Source: Fimbriimonadaceae bacterium (lineage in GTDB: Bacteria; Armatimonadota; Fimbriimonadia; Fimbriimonadales; Fimbriimonadaceae). From it: 64,000 bases of DNA. Within the stretch, counting starts at the first letter, position 1. Each line of letters begins with the position of its first letter. Below the pieces are notes generated by a model. It was not told the origin of the DNA, ran no database searches, and was given only the letters and a program-made list of their open reading frames with translations. The stretch lies in assembly GCA_019454105.1 (NCBI GenBank), contig CP075364.1, positions 561,362 through 625,361 on the forward strand, read 5' to 3'. Made by a program: the position numbers and the translations under genes. Positions 50,462 to 62,126 of this stretch are shown here, in pieces.

Positions 50462-52786
50462 TTACTCGCCGATGATCCAACCTGCCTGGTCTGCCTCGTG
50501 CTCGTAAGTGTGAACGATCTCAGCGATGGATCCGACTTGGTTGAGGGGAGCTATGGAAGAATATCTTGCCCGCATTCTTCCATCAGTTCGCACGTAACGG
50601 GTTAAAGATCCAGTCGCCTTCAGGTGTACCGACTGCCACTCTTCACTCATGACATCCGTTCGGACATCGACTGGATCCCAACCGCCTTGCCCGTCGTTTG
50701 CCTGCCAATTCCAAAGCTGGATCCTTTGGGTTTCCGGACGGGTTGAACGGCTAACCACACGGAACTGAAGCGTGTAAGGGTTCAAAGTGGGCGAAAGACC
50801 TTCCACCTCGACCGATACCTCGGGAACTCGACCAGAACTCCTGTAGACGTAGAGAGTCTCTCCGTCCGCCGCCGAAAGAGAAGCAGCCCCTCCGTACCTG
50901 ACGGTGCCCTTTCGCACCTCGCAATCCAACGGCGGCCGCCAAGGATTGAAAGGATTCCGAATGAGTCCGGAGACAGATCCGGTAACCATGATCGTTGTGC
51001 CGTCTGGAGAGTATGCAACCTTGTATAACGTTGAAACTCGTTCGCCGTACCAGGAAAGCAGACTACCTGTTCTAACATCAAAAATGTTCAGTGGCGCCGA
51101 AAGGTTGATCTGTGCTACAGCTAGTTTGCCTCCATCTGGCGAGAATGCTACGCTTTGTGCAGACCAAAGATTAGAAATTGTTTGAACGAGTGATTTACGC
51201 CTCCAATCCCAAAAAGTAATGTTGCTTGCAGCGACAGCCATCAAGTTGCCATCGAAGGAGAACGCTATGGATTTGGCTGATTGGCCCAAATTAGAGATAG
51301 TATGGACTCTGTCCCCGGTTCGCCAGTCCCAGAAATGTACGTAGCCCCCACCGGTTCCAACAACCAGTAAAGAGTAGTCTGGAGTGAAACTGAGCGAACT
51401 AATGGAGTGGGAATGAGTCAATGTGCGGATGAGTGTGCCAAGACTCGCGTCATAGAGCTTAACTTCAGGGCTGCTATCGCTGGCCAGTACGAGGGTGTCA
51501 CCGTCCTGAGAGTAAGCTAGGCATGTAGTGGAAGAATTTTGAGGCGGAAGCGTTTGAAGCAACGCTCCGCTGCTTGCGTCCAAAATCCCTACCTGGAACG
51601 AGGCTACTTGAGTGGCGAGTGTCCTTCGATCTGGCGCAATTGCTAAGGCAGACCCATAGGTAGGGCCCCACCTCCGTAGGGGAGTTCCAGTCTGGATATC
51701 CCAGAATGTTAGCTGACCCGAGGTCGTCAGGAGAGTGCGGCCTTCGTGAACATAGGTCGGTTGAGAAAAAGATCCGAAATCTTCAGACAACAGCCGAATG
51801 AAACTTGCCGTGGGTGCGTCCCACAACCGAACGGTTGTGTCGAGTGAAGCCGTAAAGAGTGTATCGCCGTTGGGCGCAAAGTTCGCACTGACTACGTGAT
51901 TCGAGTGCCCATCTAAGGTCGTAAGAAGAACTCCTTGGTTAGCGTCCCATAACTTGACTGTATGGTCAGTCGAGGCCGACGCGAGGGTCGAACCGTCCGG
52001 CGAGTAAGTCACAGCGCGAATCCCACCCAGATGTCCCGCGAGCACGTGACGCACCGCGCCTGTACGCCAGTTCCACTGGCGAATCGTTCCGTCACTTGAG
52101 CCCGAGACGACAGAATTGCCATCGGGCGAAAAGTCGACTGAAGCCACGGGGTTGCTGTGGCCGCTCAAGGTTCGTCCAGGTGTCCCGGTGGCTACGTCCC
52201 AGATGCGAAGCCGGCTGTCGTCGGCACCTGCGACCAAGGTCGCGCCGTCTGGGGAGAAAGCGACCGAATTGACTGCATTTGTGGGCCCATTGAGTTGACG
52301 GATGAACGAACCAGTTCGCCAATTCCACAGCCTCACCCTCCAATTAGCGTCTCCCGAAGCGAGAGTACTACCATCTGGTGAGAACTTGACGCATCGAACA
52401 GGGCCGGTGTGGCCAATCAGAATGTTTTGTATACTTCCAGTCGCTATGTCCCAAAGCCGTACTTGGCCCCCATAAGTCGTAGTAGCTGCCGTCGTTCCGT
52501 CATGGGAGATGTCGATCGAGAGCATCCCATCGGTTTGTGCGGTTAAGGCGTTAAGATGCCTGTTGGTTGTCAAGTCCCAAAGAGTTACGACATTTTCCCG
52601 AAGCAACGCCAGCAGCTTTCCGTCTGTCGAGACCACCATTGAGGTTCCAAGTGTGCTGGGTAGCTGCCAAAGCCATGAAGGCGCACCCTGAGCGGTTAAC
52701 GTTGCCGCAAAAGAAAAGAACATAAAACTCGATGTTAACCTTCGCAAAATACCGACGTTCCTACACGAGAAATCGCTCATTGTCAT
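50462..52786 (-). CDS. Secreted WD40-repeat protein with shared C-terminal module
   Basis: A 774-residue exported protein. After a signal peptide (SFMFFSFAATLTAQG) there are about 13 WD40 repeats in two propellers, many of the canonical form GHxxPVxxVxFSPDGxxLxSGSxDxTIRxWxW. Residues about 640-774 form a different domain, with RIQLWNWQANDG and YVRTDGRMRARYS, which matches the C-termini of the two BNR proteins downstream. The gene is visibly less GC-rich than its neighbours, with more A/T-ending codons. A near-consensus promoter lies upstream. ATG 52786 or 52780. Confidence 0.82.
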   Translation of the reverse strand: MTMSDFSCRNVGILRRLTSSFMFFSFAATLTAQGAPSWLWQLPSTLGTSMVVSTDGKLLALLRENVVTLWDLTTNRHLNALTAQTDGMLSIDISHDGTTAATTTYGGQVRLWDIATGSIQNILIGHTGPVRCVKFSPDGSTLASGDANWRVRLWNWRTGSFIRQLNGPTNAVNSVAFSPDGATLVAGADDSRLRIWDVATGTPGRTLSGHSNPVASVDFSPDGNSVVSGSSDGTIRQWNWRTGAVRHVLAGHLGGIRAVTYSPDGSTLASASTDHTVKLWDANQGVLLTTLDGHSNHVVSANFAPNGDTLFTASLDTTVRLWDAPTASFIRLLSEDFGSFSQPTYVHEGRTLLTTSGQLTFWDIQTGTPLRRWGPTYGSALAIAPDRRTLATQVASFQVGILDASSGALLQTLPPQNSSTTCLAYSQDGDTLVLASDSSPEVKLYDASLGTLIRTLTHSHSISSLSFTPDYSLLVVGTGGGYVHFWDWRTGDRVHTISNLGQSAKSIAFSFDGNLMAVAASNITFWDWRRKSLVQTISNLWSAQSVAFSPDGGKLAVAQINLSAPLNIFDVRTGSLLSWYGERVSTLYKVAYSPDGTTIMVTGSVSGLIRNPFNPWRPPLDCEVRKGTVRYGGAASLSAADGETLYVYRSSGRVPEVSVEVEGLSPTLNPYTLQFRVVSRSTRPETQRIQLWNWQANDGQGGWDPVDVRTDVMSEEWQSVHLKATGSLTRYVRTDGRMRARYSSIAPLNQVGSIAEIVHTYEHEADQAGWIIGE

Positions 52787-52805
52787 TGATCGCACCAGTA
52801 AAGAA

Positions 52806-52835
52806 GTATGACAGAGCAGGAAATACGCTGTCAAC
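52806..52835 (-). promoter_or_regulatory. Near-consensus sigma-70 promoter of the WD40 gene
   Basis: On the complement TTGACA (52835-52830), an 18-nt spacer and CATACT (52811-52806). Start of transcription near 52799 gives a 13-nt leader. It is one of the few clear -35/-10 pairs in the window. Confidence 0.65.
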
Positions 52836-53197
52836 ACATAGCGGGTGACTCCGGCGATGGCATTGATTTTGCCCTGCGACTTCGTTGGCTTTCAGAAGAG
52901 CCGCAGAGCGTGTTCGGCGTGACGCGTGCTAACTTAGGCTCATGTCCCTGCACTTGATGATAGTGAACCAGGGTTGAGCCTGGGGCCGGGTTTCGCGGCT
53001 TGAGTGCCGAGCACTGGGTCTGGGCTGTCGCAAGGGGCCTGAAATCAGGCCAGGGGAGCAGGGGAGTCTCTGGCGATTGGGCCTGACTCTGGCTCCTTCA
53101 TCCTAACCCTTTTCCCCTCATGAGGCGAGGGGCCTGGTCGCCCCTCTCCGGTTACGGGAGAGGAGTCGGGGGTCCAGGCCTCAAAGCGCCGGGCCCG
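52836..53197. other. 362-bp gap with degenerate G-rich repeats
   Basis: No gene is supported. Two related inverted repeats lie at about 53111-53131 (CCCCTC-ATGAGGC-GAGGGG) and 53141-53173 (CCCCTCTCCGGTTACGGGAG, then GTCGGGGG), both diverged versions of the window's palindromic repeat. The second ends about 25 nt from the isomerase stop. Confidence 0.55.
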
Positions 53198-54181
53198 TCA
53201 CTCCCGGGCCCAGAACATGGCGCCCGCGGGCTCTTCGATCACCGCTTCGCGCAAGACCTGCACCGCCTTGGTCAACCCCTCCCAGGGCGACATGAGCACG
53301 TCCTCGTGCTCGATGCTCAGGACAAGGTCATAGCCCACCGTCCGAAGCACGCTCACGAACTCTTTCCACCACTCGACCCCGTGGCCATAGCCGACGCTGC
53401 GGAACACCCACGACCTCTCGCCGATCAGGCCGTAGCTCTTCGTGTCGAGATTGCCGTTCAAGCTGCTCGTGTAAGGATCGATGCGCGTGTCCTTGGCGTG
53501 GACGTGGAAGAGGGCCCCTTCCATGCCGAGTTGCCGCGCTGCCGCGATGGGGTCGATGCCTTGCCACCAGAGGTGAGAGGGGTCGAAGTTAGCCCCGATC
53601 CACTCTCCGTCGGGACCGACCTCGCGGCGGAGCCGCAACAAGGTCTCGTTGTTATAGACCACGAACCCCGGGTGCATCTCGACGCAAAAGCGCACGTTGT
53701 GCTCCCGGAGGAAGGCGGCCTGCTCGCGCCAGTAGGGCATCACCCGCTCGCGCCACTGCCAGTCCAGCACGTCGCGGAACTCGTCGGGCCAGGCGCAGGT
53801 GACCCAGTTCGGGTTTTTGGCCTCGGGCCCGTCGCCCGGGCAGCCGCTGAAGCCGTTCACGTTCTGCACGCCGAGCAGGGAAGCCAGCCGCACCGCGTCT
53901 CGGAACGCCTCATGGTGGGCGGCGGCCACAGCCGGGTCAGGATGCAGCGGGTTGCCGTGGACGCTCAGGGCGGTGAGCAGGAGGCCGCGTGTGACGATTT
54001 TGCCCATGAACTCGCCACGGGCGCCCGGGTCGTCGATCAGCCTCTTGACGTCCACGTGGCCCGAGCCGGGATAAGCCCCGGCGCCGATCTCCACCGCCGT
54101 GACCCCGGCTTTAACGGCGAGGTCGAGGGCCTCGTCCAAGGTCTTGTCGCCAAAAAGGGCCAGGAAGAGTCCGACGCGCAT
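53198..54181 (-). CDS. Sugar phosphate isomerase/epimerase family protein
   Basis: A 327-residue xylose-isomerase-like TIM barrel (AP endonuclease 2 family). The metal ligands can be placed: Glu in VRFCVEMHPGF, Asp and His in GANFDPSHLWW, His in ALFHVHAKDTR and Glu in LSIEHEDVL. Such proteins isomerise or epimerise sugars; the substrate is unknown. Start ATG 54181 lies 6 nt after CAAACT (54193-54188, complement); ATG 54184 is the alternative. It is divergent from the beta-helix gene with only about 40 bp between their starts, so the two are probably co-regulated and may act on the same polysaccharide. Confidence 0.87.
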   Translation of the reverse strand: MRVGLFLALFGDKTLDEALDLAVKAGVTAVEIGAGAYPGSGHVDVKRLIDDPGARGEFMGKIVTRGLLLTALSVHGNPLHPDPAVAAAHHEAFRDAVRLASLLGVQNVNGFSGCPGDGPEAKNPNWVTCAWPDEFRDVLDWQWRERVMPYWREQAAFLREHNVRFCVEMHPGFVVYNNETLLRLRREVGPDGEWIGANFDPSHLWWQGIDPIAAARQLGMEGALFHVHAKDTRIDPYTSSLNGNLDTKSYGLIGERSWVFRSVGYGHGVEWWKEFVSVLRTVGYDLVLSIEHEDVLMSPWEGLTKAVQVLREAVIEEPAGAMFWARE

Positions 54182-54187
54182 CATCCA

Positions 54188-54217
54188 AGTTTGGCGCAAC
54201 CGTCTCGGGCCCATAAT
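54188..54217. promoter_or_regulatory. Compact divergent promoter pair
   Basis: CAAACT (54193-54188, complement) lies 6 nt from ATG 54181, and CATAAT (54212-54217) lies 5 nt from ATG 54223. Both -10 elements sit within 30 bp, so each promoter's -35 region overlaps the other. Confidence 0.45.
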
Positions 54218-54222
54218 GGGCC

Positions 54223-56532
54223 ATGCTCGCCCTTCTCGCCGTCGCCGCGGTGACGCCGCCTGTCTCCCTGAAGTCCGGCATGGTGGTTCGGTCATCGCTC
54301 GTGGTCAGGCCAGGCGTCTACCGGCTGGCCGACTCCGACGGGGCCGGCAAGAAGGGAGCGGTCAGGATCATCGGCGACGGGATCACGGTCGATTTCAAGG
54401 GGGCCACGCTCGAAGGCACTCCGACCAGTACACCTCCCGACCAGCGCAAGGGCACCGGTCTCTGGGTAACGGGCAAGAACGTCACGATCAAGAACGCCCG
54501 GGTACGGGGCTATAAGGTCGCGCTCTTCGCGCGCGACGCGCCGGGGCTCAAGATCCTTGACTGCGACTTTAGCGACAACTGGAAGCAGCGGCTCCGCTCC
54601 GACCGGGAGAAGGAAGACTTGGGCGACTGGATGAGTTTTCATCAGAACGACAAGGACGAGTGGCTGCGGTTCGGGGCAGGGGCTTACCTGACGCGGTGCG
54701 ACCGGTTCAAGGTGCGGAACCTTCGGGTCAACCGGGGCCAGTGCGGGCTGATGCTGGACGAGTGCGACGGCGGAACGGTCGTGAACTGCGACTTCAGCTT
54801 CAACTCGGCGGTCGGGCTGGGGATGTTCCGGTCCAGCGGCAACACCATCGCCCACAACAAGATGGACTGGTGCGTGCGGGGCTACAGCCACGGCGTCTAC
54901 AACCGGGGCCAAGACTCGACCGGAATCCTCGCCTTCGAGCAGTGCCATCGCAACGTCTTCGCATTTAACTCGGCCACCCACGGCGGGGACGGCTTCTTCC
55001 TTTGGGCAGGACAGACCACGATGGACACCGGCCAGGGGGGATGCAACGACAACCTGCTTTACGGCAACGATTTCAGCCATTCCCCCGCGAACGCGATCGA
55101 AGCCACCTTCAGCCGCAACTCGTTCGTCCACAACCTCCTGATCGACTCCTGGCATGGGATCTGGGGCGGCTACAGCTATGAGACTGAGATCCGAGAGAAC
55201 GTCTTCCGGTTCAACGGCGAGGCCATCGCCATCGAGCATGGACAAAAGAACATGATCCTGGGCAACAGCTTCGATGGAGACACAGTCGGTGTCTTCCTCT
55301 GGCAGAACGACCGCGAGCCCGACCCGTCCTGGGGGTACCCCAAGCATCGGGACACCAGGAACCATGGCACCGTGGTCAGTGGCAACACGTTCAAGAACAT
55401 GGCCGAGGCCGCGTTCCTCCTGGGGTCGGGGCAGGACATCGCCGTCTCGGGCAACACGGTCTCCGACTCCTTGGCCTCGGTGGTGTTCACGGGCCGCCAA
55501 AGGGGCGTCAGCCTGGTGGGGAACTCTTTCGTCGCGTCAAAGGAGATCGTAATGCCGGACGGGGTCGAGTCGACCGGCAACGCGCTGGAGATCGGCGGCA
55601 ACCCGCCTCGCCCGATCGTCACCCGTGGGGGCAACGCCCTGCCCGCCAACGAGCCGCCCGACCACCTGGACTACATGAGGATGCTGCACACTGCGTTCGA
55701 CCCGCCCCGCTTCGGGGAAGCCCGGCCCTTGCCAGGGGGCATGGACGCGTTCCTTCCTGACGGTCACTGGCGCGGGCGACGGTTCATCATGATGGACGAG
55801 TGGGGGCCGTACGACTTCAGGCGGCCCCTCTTCTGGCCGCGCGACCCAAGGGCCCTGCGAACCGGCCAGGGAGAGGCAGTGGTCGACCTCTTTGGTCCCC
55901 GGGGAGAGTGGCGCGTGGTGCTCGTCCGTGGGGCCAAGCTCTCCGCGAGCCGGGGTCAAGTCCCCGGCACGGTTCGCATGACCTGGAATCCGGCGAGCGC
56001 GGTCGATATCGAGGTGGTCCTGGAATACGTGGGGGCGTCGACCATTGATTCTTGGGGCCGGGCCACTCCCGCCGGTAGACCGGTGCGTTTCGGGATCCGC
56101 GAGTCGAGGCTGCCGGTCAGTTGGAAGGTCCGGTGGTGGGCCTGGGATCCAGCTACCCAAGACCCGCGCACACAGTCCGACGCCTTCATGCAGCTTCTTG
56201 CCACACCCCCACTCCGCGAGGAGACTCGTTCCGAACTCGACCTGGCCACCGGAGGATCGCCTGCCCCGGGAGTCCCCGCCAACCATTTTGCGACCGTGGC
56301 CGAAGGGGAGTTCGTGACCAGGGCAGGGAAGCACGTGATCGAGGTCACGACCGACGACGGATGCCAGGTCTGGCTCGACGGCAAGCTCGTGATCGACGAA
56401 TGGCGGTATCAGGGCCCGACCCAGTATCGGTACGAGGCTCATCTTCCGTCAGGAAAGCATATAATCCTGATTAAGCACTTCGAGATCGACGGCTATGCCG
56501 CGCTCAAGGCGAAAGTCACGCCGGTGCGGTGA
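54223..56532 (+). CDS. Secreted right-handed beta-helix protein with PA14-like C-terminus
   Basis: A 769-residue exported protein with a short signal peptide (LALLAVAAVTPPV). Residues about 40-430 are parallel beta-helix repeats of the NosD/pectate-lyase type (VKNVTIKNARVRGYKVALF-like coils such as GLKILDCDF, GGTVVNCDFSFNSAVGLGM). A middle beta-sandwich (about 500-640) follows. The C-terminal 80 residues (HVIEVTTDDGCQVWLDGKLVIDEW, then HIILIKHFEIDGYAALK) match a PA14-type carbohydrate-binding domain. It probably binds or cleaves polysaccharide outside the cell. Confidence 0.82.
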   Translation: MLALLAVAAVTPPVSLKSGMVVRSSLVVRPGVYRLADSDGAGKKGAVRIIGDGITVDFKGATLEGTPTSTPPDQRKGTGLWVTGKNVTIKNARVRGYKVALFARDAPGLKILDCDFSDNWKQRLRSDREKEDLGDWMSFHQNDKDEWLRFGAGAYLTRCDRFKVRNLRVNRGQCGLMLDECDGGTVVNCDFSFNSAVGLGMFRSSGNTIAHNKMDWCVRGYSHGVYNRGQDSTGILAFEQCHRNVFAFNSATHGGDGFFLWAGQTTMDTGQGGCNDNLLYGNDFSHSPANAIEATFSRNSFVHNLLIDSWHGIWGGYSYETEIRENVFRFNGEAIAIEHGQKNMILGNSFDGDTVGVFLWQNDREPDPSWGYPKHRDTRNHGTVVSGNTFKNMAEAAFLLGSGQDIAVSGNTVSDSLASVVFTGRQRGVSLVGNSFVASKEIVMPDGVESTGNALEIGGNPPRPIVTRGGNALPANEPPDHLDYMRMLHTAFDPPRFGEARPLPGGMDAFLPDGHWRGRRFIMMDEWGPYDFRRPLFWPRDPRALRTGQGEAVVDLFGPRGEWRVVLVRGAKLSASRGQVPGTVRMTWNPASAVDIEVVLEYVGASTIDSWGRATPAGRPVRFGIRESRLPVSWKVRWWAWDPATQDPRTQSDAFMQLLATPPLREETRSELDLATGGSPAPGVPANHFATVAEGEFVTRAGKHVIEVTTDDGCQVWLDGKLVIDEWRYQGPTQYRYEAHLPSGKHIILIKHFEIDGYAALKAKVTPVR

Positions 56533-56601
56533 GCCGATAGCCTTGTCACGGTCTTGTCACGTGCCAAGGAGCACACTGATGGCGACACGGAACGAGACCC
56601 T

Positions 56602-59280
56602 ATGATTCACCGAGCGCCCTCGATGGCCTTTATGGCGATGGCAGTGTGGACCCTTGCGGCCGGCCAAGGCTTCAGTTCGGATCCCTTGGCCCTGCAGGCG
56701 TTTCGTGGGGCCGCGCGATCAGTTGGCAGGCCCGTGACCTCCGACGCGATGGACCGCGCCCTTGAGCAGCGAGCTCGATTGACCAGCCCGTTCGAGTCTC
56801 CCTTGCTCGATCCTGGAAGCTGGACTTCGATGGGTCCAAACAACTTTCCTGGACGGATCAGGACCGTGCTCGTCGATCGAACGAATGCTTCAAGAATCTG
56901 GGCGGCGTCACCAGGAGGCGGAATCTGGCGATCCTTGGACGGAGGCGTCACCTGGGCTCCAGTCGGGGACTCCTTGCCCGCCATGGCCGTCAGCTGCCTG
57001 GCTCAAAGTTCAGGGGACCCCAACCTGCTCTTTGCTGGAACTGGCGAAGGGTTCTTCCAATCGACGACGGGAGCGCAGAACACGTCCGGAATCCGGGGGG
57101 CTGGAATCTATATGTCGTCCAATGGCGGGGACACTTGGTCAGGATTACCAAGCACGTCGGGCTTGCCGTTTCAGTTCGTCAACGAGATCGCTGTCAGTCC
57201 GACGAACCCGAACTTGATCTTGGCCGCGACATGGTACGGCGTTTGGAGATCGGCGAACGGTGGCGGTAGCTGGGCCAAGGTCTATCCAGTATCAGGGTTT
57301 CAACCGGCTTATGACGTTAAGTTCTCCAACAATGGATCGGAAGCGCTCGCGAACGTCTCCGGCGCGACCAGAGTAGTCAGGTCCACCGATGCGGGCCAGA
57401 GTTTCACTGCCGTAGCTGGGATTCCAGGCTCGGCTGACAGAGTCGAGCTGCAGTACTCCCAAAACTCAAACATCGTCTATGCGGCAGTCAGTGTTTCGAA
57501 CTCGATCCGGATCTATCGCTCGAACAACGCTGGAGCCCTATTCAACCTTCAATCTTCCGGGAACGGAGTTCCCAACAAAGGTCGGTACAACCTCGCCTTG
57601 TGGGTCAACCGGGTGAACAACGCCAACGAGATCGCTGTTGGAGGCGACGTGTTCGCCTACAGCAACGATGGTGGCGTCACCTTGACAACCAGGTACTCGG
57701 ACCTTCCGGAGAACATCTTTTCGATCGTCAACGCCCCGACTTTCAACGGCGGCTCGAACCGAGACCTCTTCGTGGGGACGGAAGCGGGAGTCTTTCGGGC
57801 AGACCTTGCTGCAACCACTTCGGCGCCCCTCAATAACGGATTGGTGACGACGATGGCGATGGGCGGCGTGGCCCACCGGGCTGGCAACCGGATCTCTTGC
57901 GGAGCCTTGAGCCATGGGATCCTGAACTTTGACTCGACCAGCTGGCAAGTCCGCGCCACCGGAGACGGCGGCTATGGAGCCAACACATCGACACCCGGTC
58001 GCTATTTCAACAGCACCCAACTGTTGAACGTCTATCGCACGGACAACAACGGTTCAACATTCAGTCATGTCAGCACCGGCATCGGCGAACGAGACACATC
58101 GAACACGAACTATCTGGCCCCGTTGGCGATCGACCATTCCAACCAGAACCGGCTCCTGGCGGGAGGGAGAAGCCTTTGGCGGACGAACAATGCGAATGCG
58201 ACCGTTCCTACTTGGAGCGTGATCAAAGCTTCTCTCGCCCCGCCTGGCAACTTCACTTTGCCTGAGAGCGCGCTGAACATTTCGGCGATCGCCATCGCCC
58301 CGAGCAACCCCGACGTCGTCTACATCGCTTACAACGGAGGACGGATCGAGAAGTCCACAAACGCGACTTCTGTGAACCCGACTTGGACCGTGCTGGACGA
58401 CTCGGGCGGCACGCTGCCAGACCGGTTTGTCTCCAAGATCATCGTTCATCCGACGAACCCGAGCATCGCCACATTGAGCTTCATGGGCTATGAAGCCGGG
58501 AACATTTGGAGAACAACGAACGGCGGATCGACATTCACCAACATCAGCGGCAGCGGATCGAAGGCCCTCCCTGCCGTTCCCGTTTCGGCCCTCGCCATCG
58601 ATCCAAGCGACTCCAACCGGATCTTCGTCGGCACCGACATCGGGCTCTTCTCGTCGCACGACGGAGGGGCCTCGTGGTCGACTTTGACCCAGGGGCCGGG
58701 GGCCGTGCCGATCGAGACCCTGGAGTGGTTCGACCCCGATACCCTGGTCGCCTACACGTATGGCCGAGGAGTTTGGACCGCCAAGACCACGGGCGGCAAG
58801 GCCGACGACGCCCCGCGCAACGTCAACCCGACGGTCGGCGTCCATATCGGCGGCGATCTTGAGAGTCTGGCAGTCTCGGACGACGACCGGTATTCGGTGG
58901 CAGCCGTCTCGATGGGCGGCCCAGGGGAAGTCCCTGCGGCCACTGGCGTCATCGCGGTCGAGTTCACCGGCCAAGCGCCGAACTCCGTCTGCCAGATGAT
59001 CGAGGTCACGTTCGAGGCCTCCGTCCAGAGCCTCGGGCTCACCCAAAGGATCGAGGCCTGGAACTACACGACCCAGTCTTGGACACTGCTGGACTCCCGG
59101 GCGGCGACCCTGGCAGACAGTGTCGTCCTCGCAGTCGTTTCAGGGCCGACCGCCAGCCAATACATCAACGGGGAAAACTTCGAGACACGGCTCCGGGTCG
59201 TCTACGTGACGAACAACTCGGGGCCCCAGCTGAAGGCCGTCGCCAAGATTGACCGGGTGCAGTGGTCGGTCACATACTGA
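56602..59280 (+). CDS. Secreted BNR-repeat propeller protein, copy A
   Basis: An 892-residue exported protein with a signal peptide (MAFMAMAVWTLAAGQG). It has many BNR/VPS10-type Asp-box repeats (SxDGGxTW variants: SLDGGVTWAP, SSNGGDTWSG, SANGGGSWAK), which make a large two-bladed-ring propeller like those in sortilin and xyloglucanases, without an obvious catalytic Asp pair. The last 100 residues (RIEAWNYTTQSWTLLDSRAAT, then KIDRVQWSV) are a separate module shared with copy B and with the WD40 protein. Start ATG 56602; a TTG at 56554 is possible but would precede the signal peptide. Confidence 0.82.
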   Translation: MIHRAPSMAFMAMAVWTLAAGQGFSSDPLALQAFRGAARSVGRPVTSDAMDRALEQRARLTSPFESPLLDPGSWTSMGPNNFPGRIRTVLVDRTNASRIWAASPGGGIWRSLDGGVTWAPVGDSLPAMAVSCLAQSSGDPNLLFAGTGEGFFQSTTGAQNTSGIRGAGIYMSSNGGDTWSGLPSTSGLPFQFVNEIAVSPTNPNLILAATWYGVWRSANGGGSWAKVYPVSGFQPAYDVKFSNNGSEALANVSGATRVVRSTDAGQSFTAVAGIPGSADRVELQYSQNSNIVYAAVSVSNSIRIYRSNNAGALFNLQSSGNGVPNKGRYNLALWVNRVNNANEIAVGGDVFAYSNDGGVTLTTRYSDLPENIFSIVNAPTFNGGSNRDLFVGTEAGVFRADLAATTSAPLNNGLVTTMAMGGVAHRAGNRISCGALSHGILNFDSTSWQVRATGDGGYGANTSTPGRYFNSTQLLNVYRTDNNGSTFSHVSTGIGERDTSNTNYLAPLAIDHSNQNRLLAGGRSLWRTNNANATVPTWSVIKASLAPPGNFTLPESALNISAIAIAPSNPDVVYIAYNGGRIEKSTNATSVNPTWTVLDDSGGTLPDRFVSKIIVHPTNPSIATLSFMGYEAGNIWRTTNGGSTFTNISGSGSKALPAVPVSALAIDPSDSNRIFVGTDIGLFSSHDGGASWSTLTQGPGAVPIETLEWFDPDTLVAYTYGRGVWTAKTTGGKADDAPRNVNPTVGVHIGGDLESLAVSDDDRYSVAAVSMGGPGEVPAATGVIAVEFTGQAPNSVCQMIEVTFEASVQSLGLTQRIEAWNYTTQSWTLLDSRAATLADSVVLAVVSGPTASQYINGENFETRLRVVYVTNNSGPQLKAVAKIDRVQWSVTY

Positions 59281-59360
59281 CGGCGCTTTTGCCTGTTGCC
59301 CTTTTCGGCGCAAATATGCAGAATGGCACTAGGTCGGGATCTGCCCGGCTTTGAGGAAGA

Positions 59361-62126
59361 ATGCGTCCAGCCCTACTGCTCGTTTTTTGCGCCCTGTCAA
59401 TGGCTTCGAACGCCCAAACTTGGATCGCGGGCGTCGCTCGCGCCCTTGCAGAAGAAAGACCCGCCGAGATCGAAAAGTCCGCCGTCATCGCCATGCGGCA
59501 GCGGCTCTATGCTCGGAGGGACGAGAACGGCCAGATCCCCGAGAACGCGCTCTGGCGGGCCAAGCTCCAGCGCGACAAGCTCGTCCAGCTGCAGGAGTCT
59601 GAGCCACAGGTCGATCCCACTTCTTGGACGAACCTTGGCCCGGGCAACATTGGTGGTCGCCTGCGTTCCATTGTGATCGACCCCACGAACCCGAACCGCA
59701 TGTGGGTCGCTAGCCCCGGCGGCGGCATCTGGAGGACCACGAACGCTGGATCCAGTTGGGCCCCGCTCGACGACTTTATGCCGTCGCTCAGCGCCAACTG
59801 CATGGTGATCGACAAGAACAACCCGAACCTGCTGCTGGTCGGCACGGGGGAGGGCGTCTACTTTGAAAACGCCGAGGGAAGCAACAACAAGGCGGCCGTG
59901 CTCGGCGCCGGCATCTTCCGGTCCGTCAACGGGGGCGATACTTGGTCGCAGCTTCCCGCCACCGCGAACTCCGACTTCACGGGCGTCGCCCGGATCAGCG
60001 TCAGCCCCACCGACACCAACGTTTGGCTGGTCGCGACCAGTACCGGGATCTTCCGAACTACCGACGCCGGGGCCACGTTCACCAAGGTCCGCAATGGGCT
60101 CACTCAGGACATCGACTTCCACCCGACCAACCCGAACCTGGCTGTGGCCGGGTTCCATGACGCCCCCGGGGCCGCTTACTCCACGGACGGCGGCGTGACA
60201 TGGATCAACGCGACCGGGATCACGGGCTCGCACCGCGTCGAGCTCTGCTGGTCACGAAGCGTGAGCTCCAACATTTACGCGGGCGTGACCAACGGCTCGA
60301 CCGGCCGGATCAGGGTCTACAAGTCCACAAACAACGGGCAGTCCTGGACGCTCCAAACCTCGAGTTCAGGCATCACGACCTACGAGTCGTACAACAACAT
60401 CATCTGGGTCGATCCGACCAACGACAACAATCTCGTGCTCGGCGGGGTCGGTCTGGCGCGTTCGACCAATAGCGGCGTGACCCTCACGACGGCCTTCAGC
60501 AGCGTCCACCCGGACCATCACTACATCATCGAGCACCCCGGATTCAACGGGACGACCAACCGCACGATCTTCTTCGCCCACGACGGGGGGATCTCCAGGG
60601 CGGCCGACTACACGTCCAACACGACGACCAACCTGAACAACCAGCTTTACATCACCCAGTTCTACAGCCTGGCCATCCAAGACGGAACGAACCGGATGAT
60701 CGGTGGGGCTCAGGACAACGGAACCCCGCTCTACACCGGCAACACCGCGACATGGACGTCCGACCGGATCGGTGGCGACGGCACCTACTCAGCCGCCGAT
60801 CCCACGGTGAGCAACGTCTTCTACGGAGGCTACTACTGGATGCGGATGTTCCGCAGCACAGACGGTGGCAACAACTTCCCGACCGATATTACGGCCGGTA
60901 TCACGGACCGTGGATCGACGACAACAGGGAACTTCATCCCTTATGTGATGCTCGATCCGAACGAGCCCAACCGGATGCTCGCCTGCACCCGGCAACTCTG
61001 GCGCTCCAATAACGTCAGGACCGGAAACCCCCCCAGCTGGACCGCCATCAAACCCCCGATCTCGAGCAGTCCCGATGGCGGGCGTGGGCCGGTCGCCGGC
61101 AGCGGCCCGAAGAACGACCATATGAACGTCGAAAACCCGATCAACATCGCGACGTGCGCGGTGGCGAAGGGCAACAGCAACATTGTTTGGGTCGGGCACA
61201 ACAACGGCCAGGTCTGGAAGACCACGAACGGACTCGCCGCGACTCCCAGTTGGACAAGAATGGATCCCAACGGCCCTTTGCCCGCCAGATGGTGCAACAC
61301 GATCGCCATCCATCCGTCTGACCCGAACATCGTCTACGTCGGGTTCATGGGGTTCAGCGACGGCAACGTCCGCAAGACCACTGACGGCGGACTGACATGG
61401 CAGGACGCTTCGGGCGTCGCGCCTCGGCGCCTGCCCGCGATCCCGGTCTCGGGACTCACGATCGACCCGCTCCGCCCGGACCGGATCTTTGCTGGCACCG
61501 AGTTCGGTGTGTTCTCCAGTTGGGACGGCGGCCAGACTTGGACGGTCACGACCCAAGGGCCTGGAACGGCCCCGATCGACCAGTTCGTATGGCGGAACAA
61601 CACGACCCTCATGATCGCCACCTATGGGCGTGGGATCTGGCAAGCCGTTGTCACGCCCGACAACCCCAACCTCGCGCCGACGGCCTTCTCGATCTTCAGG
61701 GGTGCCTTGGAGAGCGGAGGCCTGGCCGATCTCGCGACGTCGGACGACAACTATCTGACGGTCCGGAACGGGATCGTGGTGAATCAAAACGAGTCGCCAG
61801 TGACCATCGATGTCTCGGCCACCGCTCCTCTGACGATCGCGCAAAAGATCGTGGTCGAAGTCGAGTCCTCGGTGACTGCGGGCGGCCTGGGTCGACGCAT
61901 CCAAGCCTGGAACTTCGACACGGGACAATGGGTCGAGATCGACTCGCGAGCCGCCACCAACTCGGACTCGGTGGCCAGTGGCGAGATCAACGCGAACGTC
62001 TCAAGCTTCATCGAGCCGTCGACCCGAGAAGTGAGGGCCCGGCTCCTCTTCCGCGCGACCGGCCCCGTGACCACCCCGGTCTGGAGGGCGAAGATCGATC
62101 TGGTCCGCTGGACGGTGACGAACTGA
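59361..62126 (+). CDS. Secreted BNR-repeat propeller protein, copy B
   Basis: A 921-residue paralogue of the preceding gene in tandem, 80 nt downstream. It shares the opening (SWTNLGPGNIGGRLRSIVID versus SWTSMGPNNFPGRIRTVLVD), the WVASPGGGIWRTTNAGSSW repeat and the C-terminal module (RIQAWNFDTGQWVEIDSRAAT, KIDLVRWTV). The signal peptide is ALLLVFCALSMASNAQ. TTGAGGAAGA before ATG 59361 is a clear Shine-Dalgarno, so it may be read from the upstream transcript. Identity to copy A is moderate, so the duplication is old. Probably a surface or extracellular binding protein. Confidence 0.82.
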   Translation: MRPALLLVFCALSMASNAQTWIAGVARALAEERPAEIEKSAVIAMRQRLYARRDENGQIPENALWRAKLQRDKLVQLQESEPQVDPTSWTNLGPGNIGGRLRSIVIDPTNPNRMWVASPGGGIWRTTNAGSSWAPLDDFMPSLSANCMVIDKNNPNLLLVGTGEGVYFENAEGSNNKAAVLGAGIFRSVNGGDTWSQLPATANSDFTGVARISVSPTDTNVWLVATSTGIFRTTDAGATFTKVRNGLTQDIDFHPTNPNLAVAGFHDAPGAAYSTDGGVTWINATGITGSHRVELCWSRSVSSNIYAGVTNGSTGRIRVYKSTNNGQSWTLQTSSSGITTYESYNNIIWVDPTNDNNLVLGGVGLARSTNSGVTLTTAFSSVHPDHHYIIEHPGFNGTTNRTIFFAHDGGISRAADYTSNTTTNLNNQLYITQFYSLAIQDGTNRMIGGAQDNGTPLYTGNTATWTSDRIGGDGTYSAADPTVSNVFYGGYYWMRMFRSTDGGNNFPTDITAGITDRGSTTTGNFIPYVMLDPNEPNRMLACTRQLWRSNNVRTGNPPSWTAIKPPISSSPDGGRGPVAGSGPKNDHMNVENPINIATCAVAKGNSNIVWVGHNNGQVWKTTNGLAATPSWTRMDPNGPLPARWCNTIAIHPSDPNIVYVGFMGFSDGNVRKTTDGGLTWQDASGVAPRRLPAIPVSGLTIDPLRPDRIFAGTEFGVFSSWDGGQTWTVTTQGPGTAPIDQFVWRNNTTLMIATYGRGIWQAVVTPDNPNLAPTAFSIFRGALESGGLADLATSDDNYLTVRNGIVVNQNESPVTIDVSATAPLTIAQKIVVEVESSVTAGGLGRRIQAWNFDTGQWVEIDSRAATNSDSVASGEINANVSSFIEPSTREVRARLLFRATGPVTTPVWRAKIDLVRWTVTN

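Follow-up and report, generated by a model that had tools for sequence, protein, structure and literature searches.

A C-terminal module with a predicted jelly-roll fold on many, mostly exported proteins of a Fimbriimonadaceae bacterium

Three propeller proteins and their C-terminal tails

The window analysed here, a stretch of 64,000 nucleotides from contig CP075364.1 of a Fimbriimonadaceae bacterium, carries genes for a WD40 protein (50462-52786, − strand) and for two BNR proteins, BNR1 (56602-59280, + strand) and BNR2 (59361-62126, + strand). The WD40 protein reads as a signal peptide (52691-52786, − strand, ending in FSFAATLTA/Q and also recognized by a simple signal-peptide rule), a WD40 propeller region (50933-52690, − strand; Pfam WD40 and related propeller models) and, joined to the latter, the C-terminal module with which this work is concerned (50465-50932, − strand). 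In BNR1 a signal peptide read from the sequence (56602-56664, + strand; MIHRAPSMAFMAMAVWTLAAG/Q) is followed by a BNR/sortilin-type propeller (56665-58809, + strand; Pfam PF15902) and the module (58810-59277, + strand), and in BNR2 the corresponding parts are a signal peptide (59361-59414, + strand; MRPALLLVFCALSMASNA/Q), a propeller of the same type (59415-61673, + strand; PF15902) and the module (61674-62123, + strand). Among these genes also lies one for a right-handed beta-helix (NosD-like) protein (54223-56532, + strand) that has a C-terminal PA14 domain and lacks the module.

The likeness of the three tails had been predicted from short motifs, and both these and the open reading frames were found where the prediction had placed them. 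The three frames read RIQLWNW, RIEAWNY and RIQAWNF at the first motif, WDPVDVR, WTLLDSR and WVEIDSR at the second and RMRARY, TRLRVVY and VRARLLF at the third, and the BNR pair ends in KIDRVQWSV and KIDLVRWTV. With an HMM built on 25 tails found elsewhere in the genome, that of the WD40 protein being left out, the WD40 tail scores 87 bits (3.2e-26); the BNR1 and BNR2 tails score 114 and 178 bits with the same HMM, although both were inside the model. E-values in the HMM search of the genome were 2.3e-39 for the WD40 tail and 1.0e-37 for BNR1, where the alignment agrees, and the BNR2 tail reached 5.8e-54. The similarity had been put at the last 100 or so residues; it is real but longer, as the module covers about 150 residues from a start of the form 'PT..F.x.RG...SGGL..L..SDD'. 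Nor are all three proteins unlike one another, as had been thought: BNR1 and BNR2 are adjacent tandem paralogues, 39% identical across the propeller, so that the likeness of their tails may come from common descent of the whole gene and the WD40 tail is the only independent case among the three. Judged by these profile scores, the three tails are copies of one homologous module.

Occurrence, cargo and copying of the module

The source genome (G000; single contig, 2.74 Mb, 99% complete) was searched for further members, as the original prediction had proposed. One tail as query found 35 places and the alignment found 45; 41 of the latter have E-values of 2.7e-12 or lower, and weak matches with E above 1e-5 (980001-980258 and 1685840-1685965) were excluded from the count. 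All 41 modules end 0-8 residues ahead of the stop codon and 74 further members, from four other genomes, do so within five residues, so that in all 115 members of the five genomes the module lies within 8 residues of the stop; each of the 115 proteins has one module and none has two. More than 40% of these 115 tails end in proline (TP, NP, VP, RP, AP or KP).

The N-terminal parts of the 41 members fall into about 25 clusters that have no BLAST match to each other. Pfam assigns them to BNR/sortilin and WD40 propellers, subtilases, PQQ proteins, a sugar dehydrogenase, a PAD_porph protein, a laminin-G-like protein and an NHL/SGL protein, and many have an N-terminal part with no Pfam match. Four subtilases carry the module, one of which (at 980001) is a weak module match outside the 41. 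The PAD_porph-family protein (peptidyl-arginine/agmatine deiminase; G000:C1:1515711-1516154, − strand) has a signal peptide as well as the module. A signal peptide was recognized by the simple rule in 34 of the 41 proteins (about 37 when three with GTG or unusual starts are added on inspection), in 62 of 73 module proteins of the relatives and in 39 of 125 neighbouring open reading frames. The module is thus always C-terminal, as had been asked of it, but its proteins are only mostly exported. Clustering of the gene neighbours around module genes gave no recurring partner gene.

Copy number is very uneven across 41 related genomes (records of Fimbriimonadaceae and related Armatimonadota): fourteen of them, from two families, have 14-75 copies and the others 0-13, and the expanded sets belong to scattered Fimbriimonadales genomes. 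At least one copy is present in 88 of 255 Armatimonadota genomes, with only one or two per genome outside the order. In one genome (G022) 75 module copies, with weaker scores, stand beside 61 copies of PEP-CTERM, both tails being abundant.

Eight module genes of G000 have closely similar tails, and in six of them (G000:C1 404617, 1028900, 1222729, 1991787, 2488993 and 920645) the tails are 95-98% identical at DNA level across 453 bases. The N-terminal parts of these genes are unrelated except for one distant pair, and beyond a few codons upstream of the tail identity falls to the random level. In three of them the shared DNA extends past the stop codon and includes a palindromic repeat (CCCCCTCCCCCGTTCACGGGGGAGGGGG). 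Palindromic, GC-rich repeats of the form CCCTCCCC..(4-10)..GGGGAGGG occur five times in the window and 17 times in 235 kb of module regions, and three of them sit directly after copied tails. In G009, of a sister genus, orthologues of five of the copied-tail genes are 50-65% identical in the N-terminal part but only 30-38% in the tail, whereas in most other module genes tail and N-terminal part have diverged from G009 to a comparable degree. Near-identical tails in G000 together with diverged tails in the G009 orthologues mean that in these genes an older tail was recently replaced by a new one, most simply through homologous recombination or gene conversion between 3′ ends. Constraint at the protein level acts on the copied tails (pN/pS 0.40), and a second, independent set of nine copied tails, some with related N-terminal parts, was found in another genome (G004).

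Predicted fold and exchange for dockerin repeats

The WD40 and BNR2 tails were modelled with AlphaFold2. The BNR2 tail (13 sequences) gave a pLDDT of 94.2 and a pTM of 0.88 and the WD40 tail (10 sequences) a pLDDT of 89.4, with the elements in the same order, so that the structure prediction that had been suggested as a check gives the two tails the same fold. With 41 members in the genome and one fold for both modelled tails, neither of the two outcomes named beforehand as refuting the prediction was observed. The predicted topology is a jelly roll closest to carbohydrate-binding modules (CBMs). Foldseek and VIA-align comparison of the models placed jelly rolls nearest, namely a phi812 baseplate protein (Z 14.0) and a mannanase CBM (Z 12.2), followed by CBM4-2 (Z 10.8), an alginate CBM (Z 10.5) and CBM61 (Z 10.1); the WD40-tail model, also compared with solved folds, likewise resembled jelly rolls. 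The most conserved residues among the 115 members are G10, G15, D24, R123, D142 and W146 (BNR2-tail numbering from the first aligned residue), and of these the two acids are near-invariant (D24 in 84%, D142 in 91%) and could belong to the structural calcium site that such folds often contain.

As regards family, the gathering cut-off of PF14741 (GH114_assoc, 22 bits) was passed by two of the 41 tails, those of the WD40 protein (33.4 bits) and of the sugar dehydrogenase (400760-400984; 28.6 bits), and BNR1 (16.3 bits) stayed under it, like most other copies. On these scores the set would at best be a divergent branch of PF14741. No GH114 domain was found in the member proteins scanned with Pfam, in which the module is C-terminal; no CBM family was among the Pfam matches of 25 members at E-values up to 10; the PDB held no sequence relative of the module and no NCBIfam family fits the tails. 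The earlier view of the tails as neither PEP-CTERM nor any known sorting tail agrees with the lack of such a match in Pfam and NCBIfam, but the family is not wholly new, given that PF14741 takes in the WD40 tail. Similarly, the proposed lineage-specific beta-sandwich is better described as lineage-expanded, with a predicted jelly roll of the CBM kind and a place at the edge of PF14741 rather than an unknown fold and family.

Orthologues of the BNR1 propeller were sought in 22 genomes and the residues that follow the propeller were read. In ten genera the propeller ends in the module (G000, G009, G010, one copy in G013, G014, G015, G017, G024, G032 and G038), and in G005, G023 and the second G013 copy it is followed by a linker or Ig-like domain and then by two dockerin-type repeats; paralogues in G002, G010 and G022 have Ig-like repeats after the propeller. 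This is direct evidence, at the level of orthologues, of a swap between module and dockerin repeats. Dockerin PF00404 was not found in G000, and three Fimbriimonadales genomes (G013, G023 and G025) have 61-87 dockerin-type domains each. Across the 41 genomes dockerin counts are high (10-87) in eleven and module counts in fourteen, G013 alone being in both sets, and the two counts are negatively correlated (Spearman −0.47, p 0.002). Exclusivity at the genome level is nevertheless confounded by phylogeny and only suggestive, as there is no correlation within the family of the window, a Fisher test yields p 0.064 and, in the RpoB tree, few clades account for the dockerin-rich genomes.

Possible role and comparison with known systems

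We propose that the module retains proteins at the surface as a general-purpose tail, by binding an envelope or matrix glycan non-covalently, a reading in which we place about even confidence, and that it probably serves as a common 'handle' keeping proteins on the cell surface. The terminal position, the single copy, the unrelated exported cargo and the exchange both from gene to gene and with another attachment tail suggest a handle of general use, not a part with a catalytic or substrate-specific task, and the CBM-type fold points to glycan binding. A handle that acts independently of its cargo could be swapped between genes and replaced by dockerin repeats. Module proteins would cross the inner membrane by Sec, using the signal peptide, and would be carried to the surface by one of the ordinary outer-membrane pathways, probably type II secretion; there the terminal jelly roll would bind one of the cell's own glycans, in the envelope or the matrix (LPS O-chain, capsule or biofilm polysaccharide), and so keep the protein on the surface with no covalent link. 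The type II route is suggested by two secretins in the genome and by the published Fimbriimonas genome, which encodes a type II secretion system and LPS genes (PMC4072686). Against retention it may be said that both secretins could serve pili, that a module which is strictly C-terminal and present once per protein looks more like a sorting signal than like an ordinary CBM, and that the complementarity of module and dockerin is confounded by phylogeny.

The strict C-terminal position would be explained equally well if the module were an outer-membrane sorting or export signal, perhaps cleaved after export, for a dedicated and undescribed machinery, resembling the type IX secretion system (T9SS) C-terminal domain in function; the single copy and the unrelated signal-peptide proteins would fit this too. 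There is a precedent in the T9SS, of which a C-terminal beta-sandwich is a known export signal (PMC4804311), and tens of copies in some genomes with few in others, as well as the PAD_porph-family protein among the cargoes, would also agree with it. We nevertheless consider it unlikely: a 150-residue jelly roll of the CBM type differs from the much shorter Ig-like T9SS domain, and three further points count mildly against it, namely that genomes with one to five copies are not what a dedicated machine would favour, that no partner gene recurs beside module genes and that SprA_N (PF14349) had no match in 16 genomes, the model having matched no control genome either. In its fuller form, in which an undescribed outer-membrane sorting pathway of Armatimonadota, convergent with the T9SS, recognizes the tail, and the tail spreads between genes by recombination and is exchangeable with a dockerin-based system, the idea seems to us doubtful.

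Ordinary CBMs occur at either end of proteins and also in repeats, neither of which was seen in the 115 module proteins; this, the small number of glycan enzymes among the cargoes and the swap with dockerins make it improbable that the module is simply an accessory CBM that directs enzymes and propellers, once secreted, to polysaccharide substrates outside the cell, despite the predicted fold and a Pfam name that refers to association with glycosyl hydrolases. Still less can be said for a module that merely caps or stabilizes the chain end and owes its spread mostly to recombination and gene conversion among 3′ ends. Unrelated genes whose tails are nearly identical in DNA, three of them with a common downstream palindromic repeat, and the second copied set in G004 are what such a process would leave, but the pN/pS within the copied set, the near-invariant residues, the export bias of module proteins and the fact that most tails outside this set diverge along with the gene that carries them, at an identity comparable to that of the N-terminal part, make this explanation very improbable.

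Shared C-terminal tags as such are already known, but to our knowledge a folded, CBM-like one that is expanded in Fimbriimonadales and mobile between genes is undescribed, and a search of the open-access literature gave no description of this tail. As far as we know, the way in which proteins are placed on the surface of diderms outside Proteobacteria and Bacteroidota is also largely unknown. One tail on some 41 proteins, most of them exported, in a genome of 2.7 Mb offers a way into the exported proteome of a phylum that has been little studied, and with it the surface location of dozens of unannotated proteins can be tested. The replacement of tails at DNA level, which is lineage-specific, shows domain exchange as it happens, and the swap of module and dockerin repeats on orthologous cargo suggests two attachment chemistries for one role.

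Among known C-terminal tags, PEP-CTERM resembles the module in being common to unrelated exported proteins and in occurring in the same genomes, but it is a 24-residue motif with a membrane helix and a basic end, whereas the module is a folded domain of 150 residues. The module was rejected as a PEP-CTERM as its tails have no PEP motif, membrane helix or basic end and TIGR02595 was not among their matches. The two coexist in all 16 genomes examined (31 PEP-CTERM copies in G000), so that no fewer than two kinds of C-terminal tag are in use in the cell. A trade-off between them was considered and dropped, the counts being uncorrelated in the 16 genomes (Spearman −0.14, p 0.61), and a search for a swap of module and PEP-CTERM on a HAF-like protein found none. 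The T9SS C-terminal domain is likewise a beta-sandwich at the end of many unrelated proteins exported by Sec, and the module shares its position; identity with it is ruled out by sequence, the module tails having no match to the T9SS tail families of Pfam and NCBIfam, and by fold, the T9SS domain being much shorter and Ig-like. Ig-like T9SS domains are absent from the top rows of the fold search, which by itself proves nothing.

PF14741, a family of unknown function named for its N-terminal association with GH114 glycosyl hydrolases, matches the WD40 and sugar-dehydrogenase tails above the cut-off and the others more weakly; both BNR tails and most copies lie below it, and the module stands at the C-terminus and not with GH114. 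The jelly-roll CBMs (CBM4, 16, 22, 29 and 61) share the predicted fold (Z 9.5-10.8) and, presumably, the two near-invariant acids where structural calcium is usual, but the module matches no Pfam CBM family and is strictly C-terminal, and its glycan binding is predicted from the fold. The type I dockerin (PF00404), with two EF-hand-like calcium-binding repeats that the module lacks, is unrelated to it, but occupies the position of the module in orthologues of the propeller.
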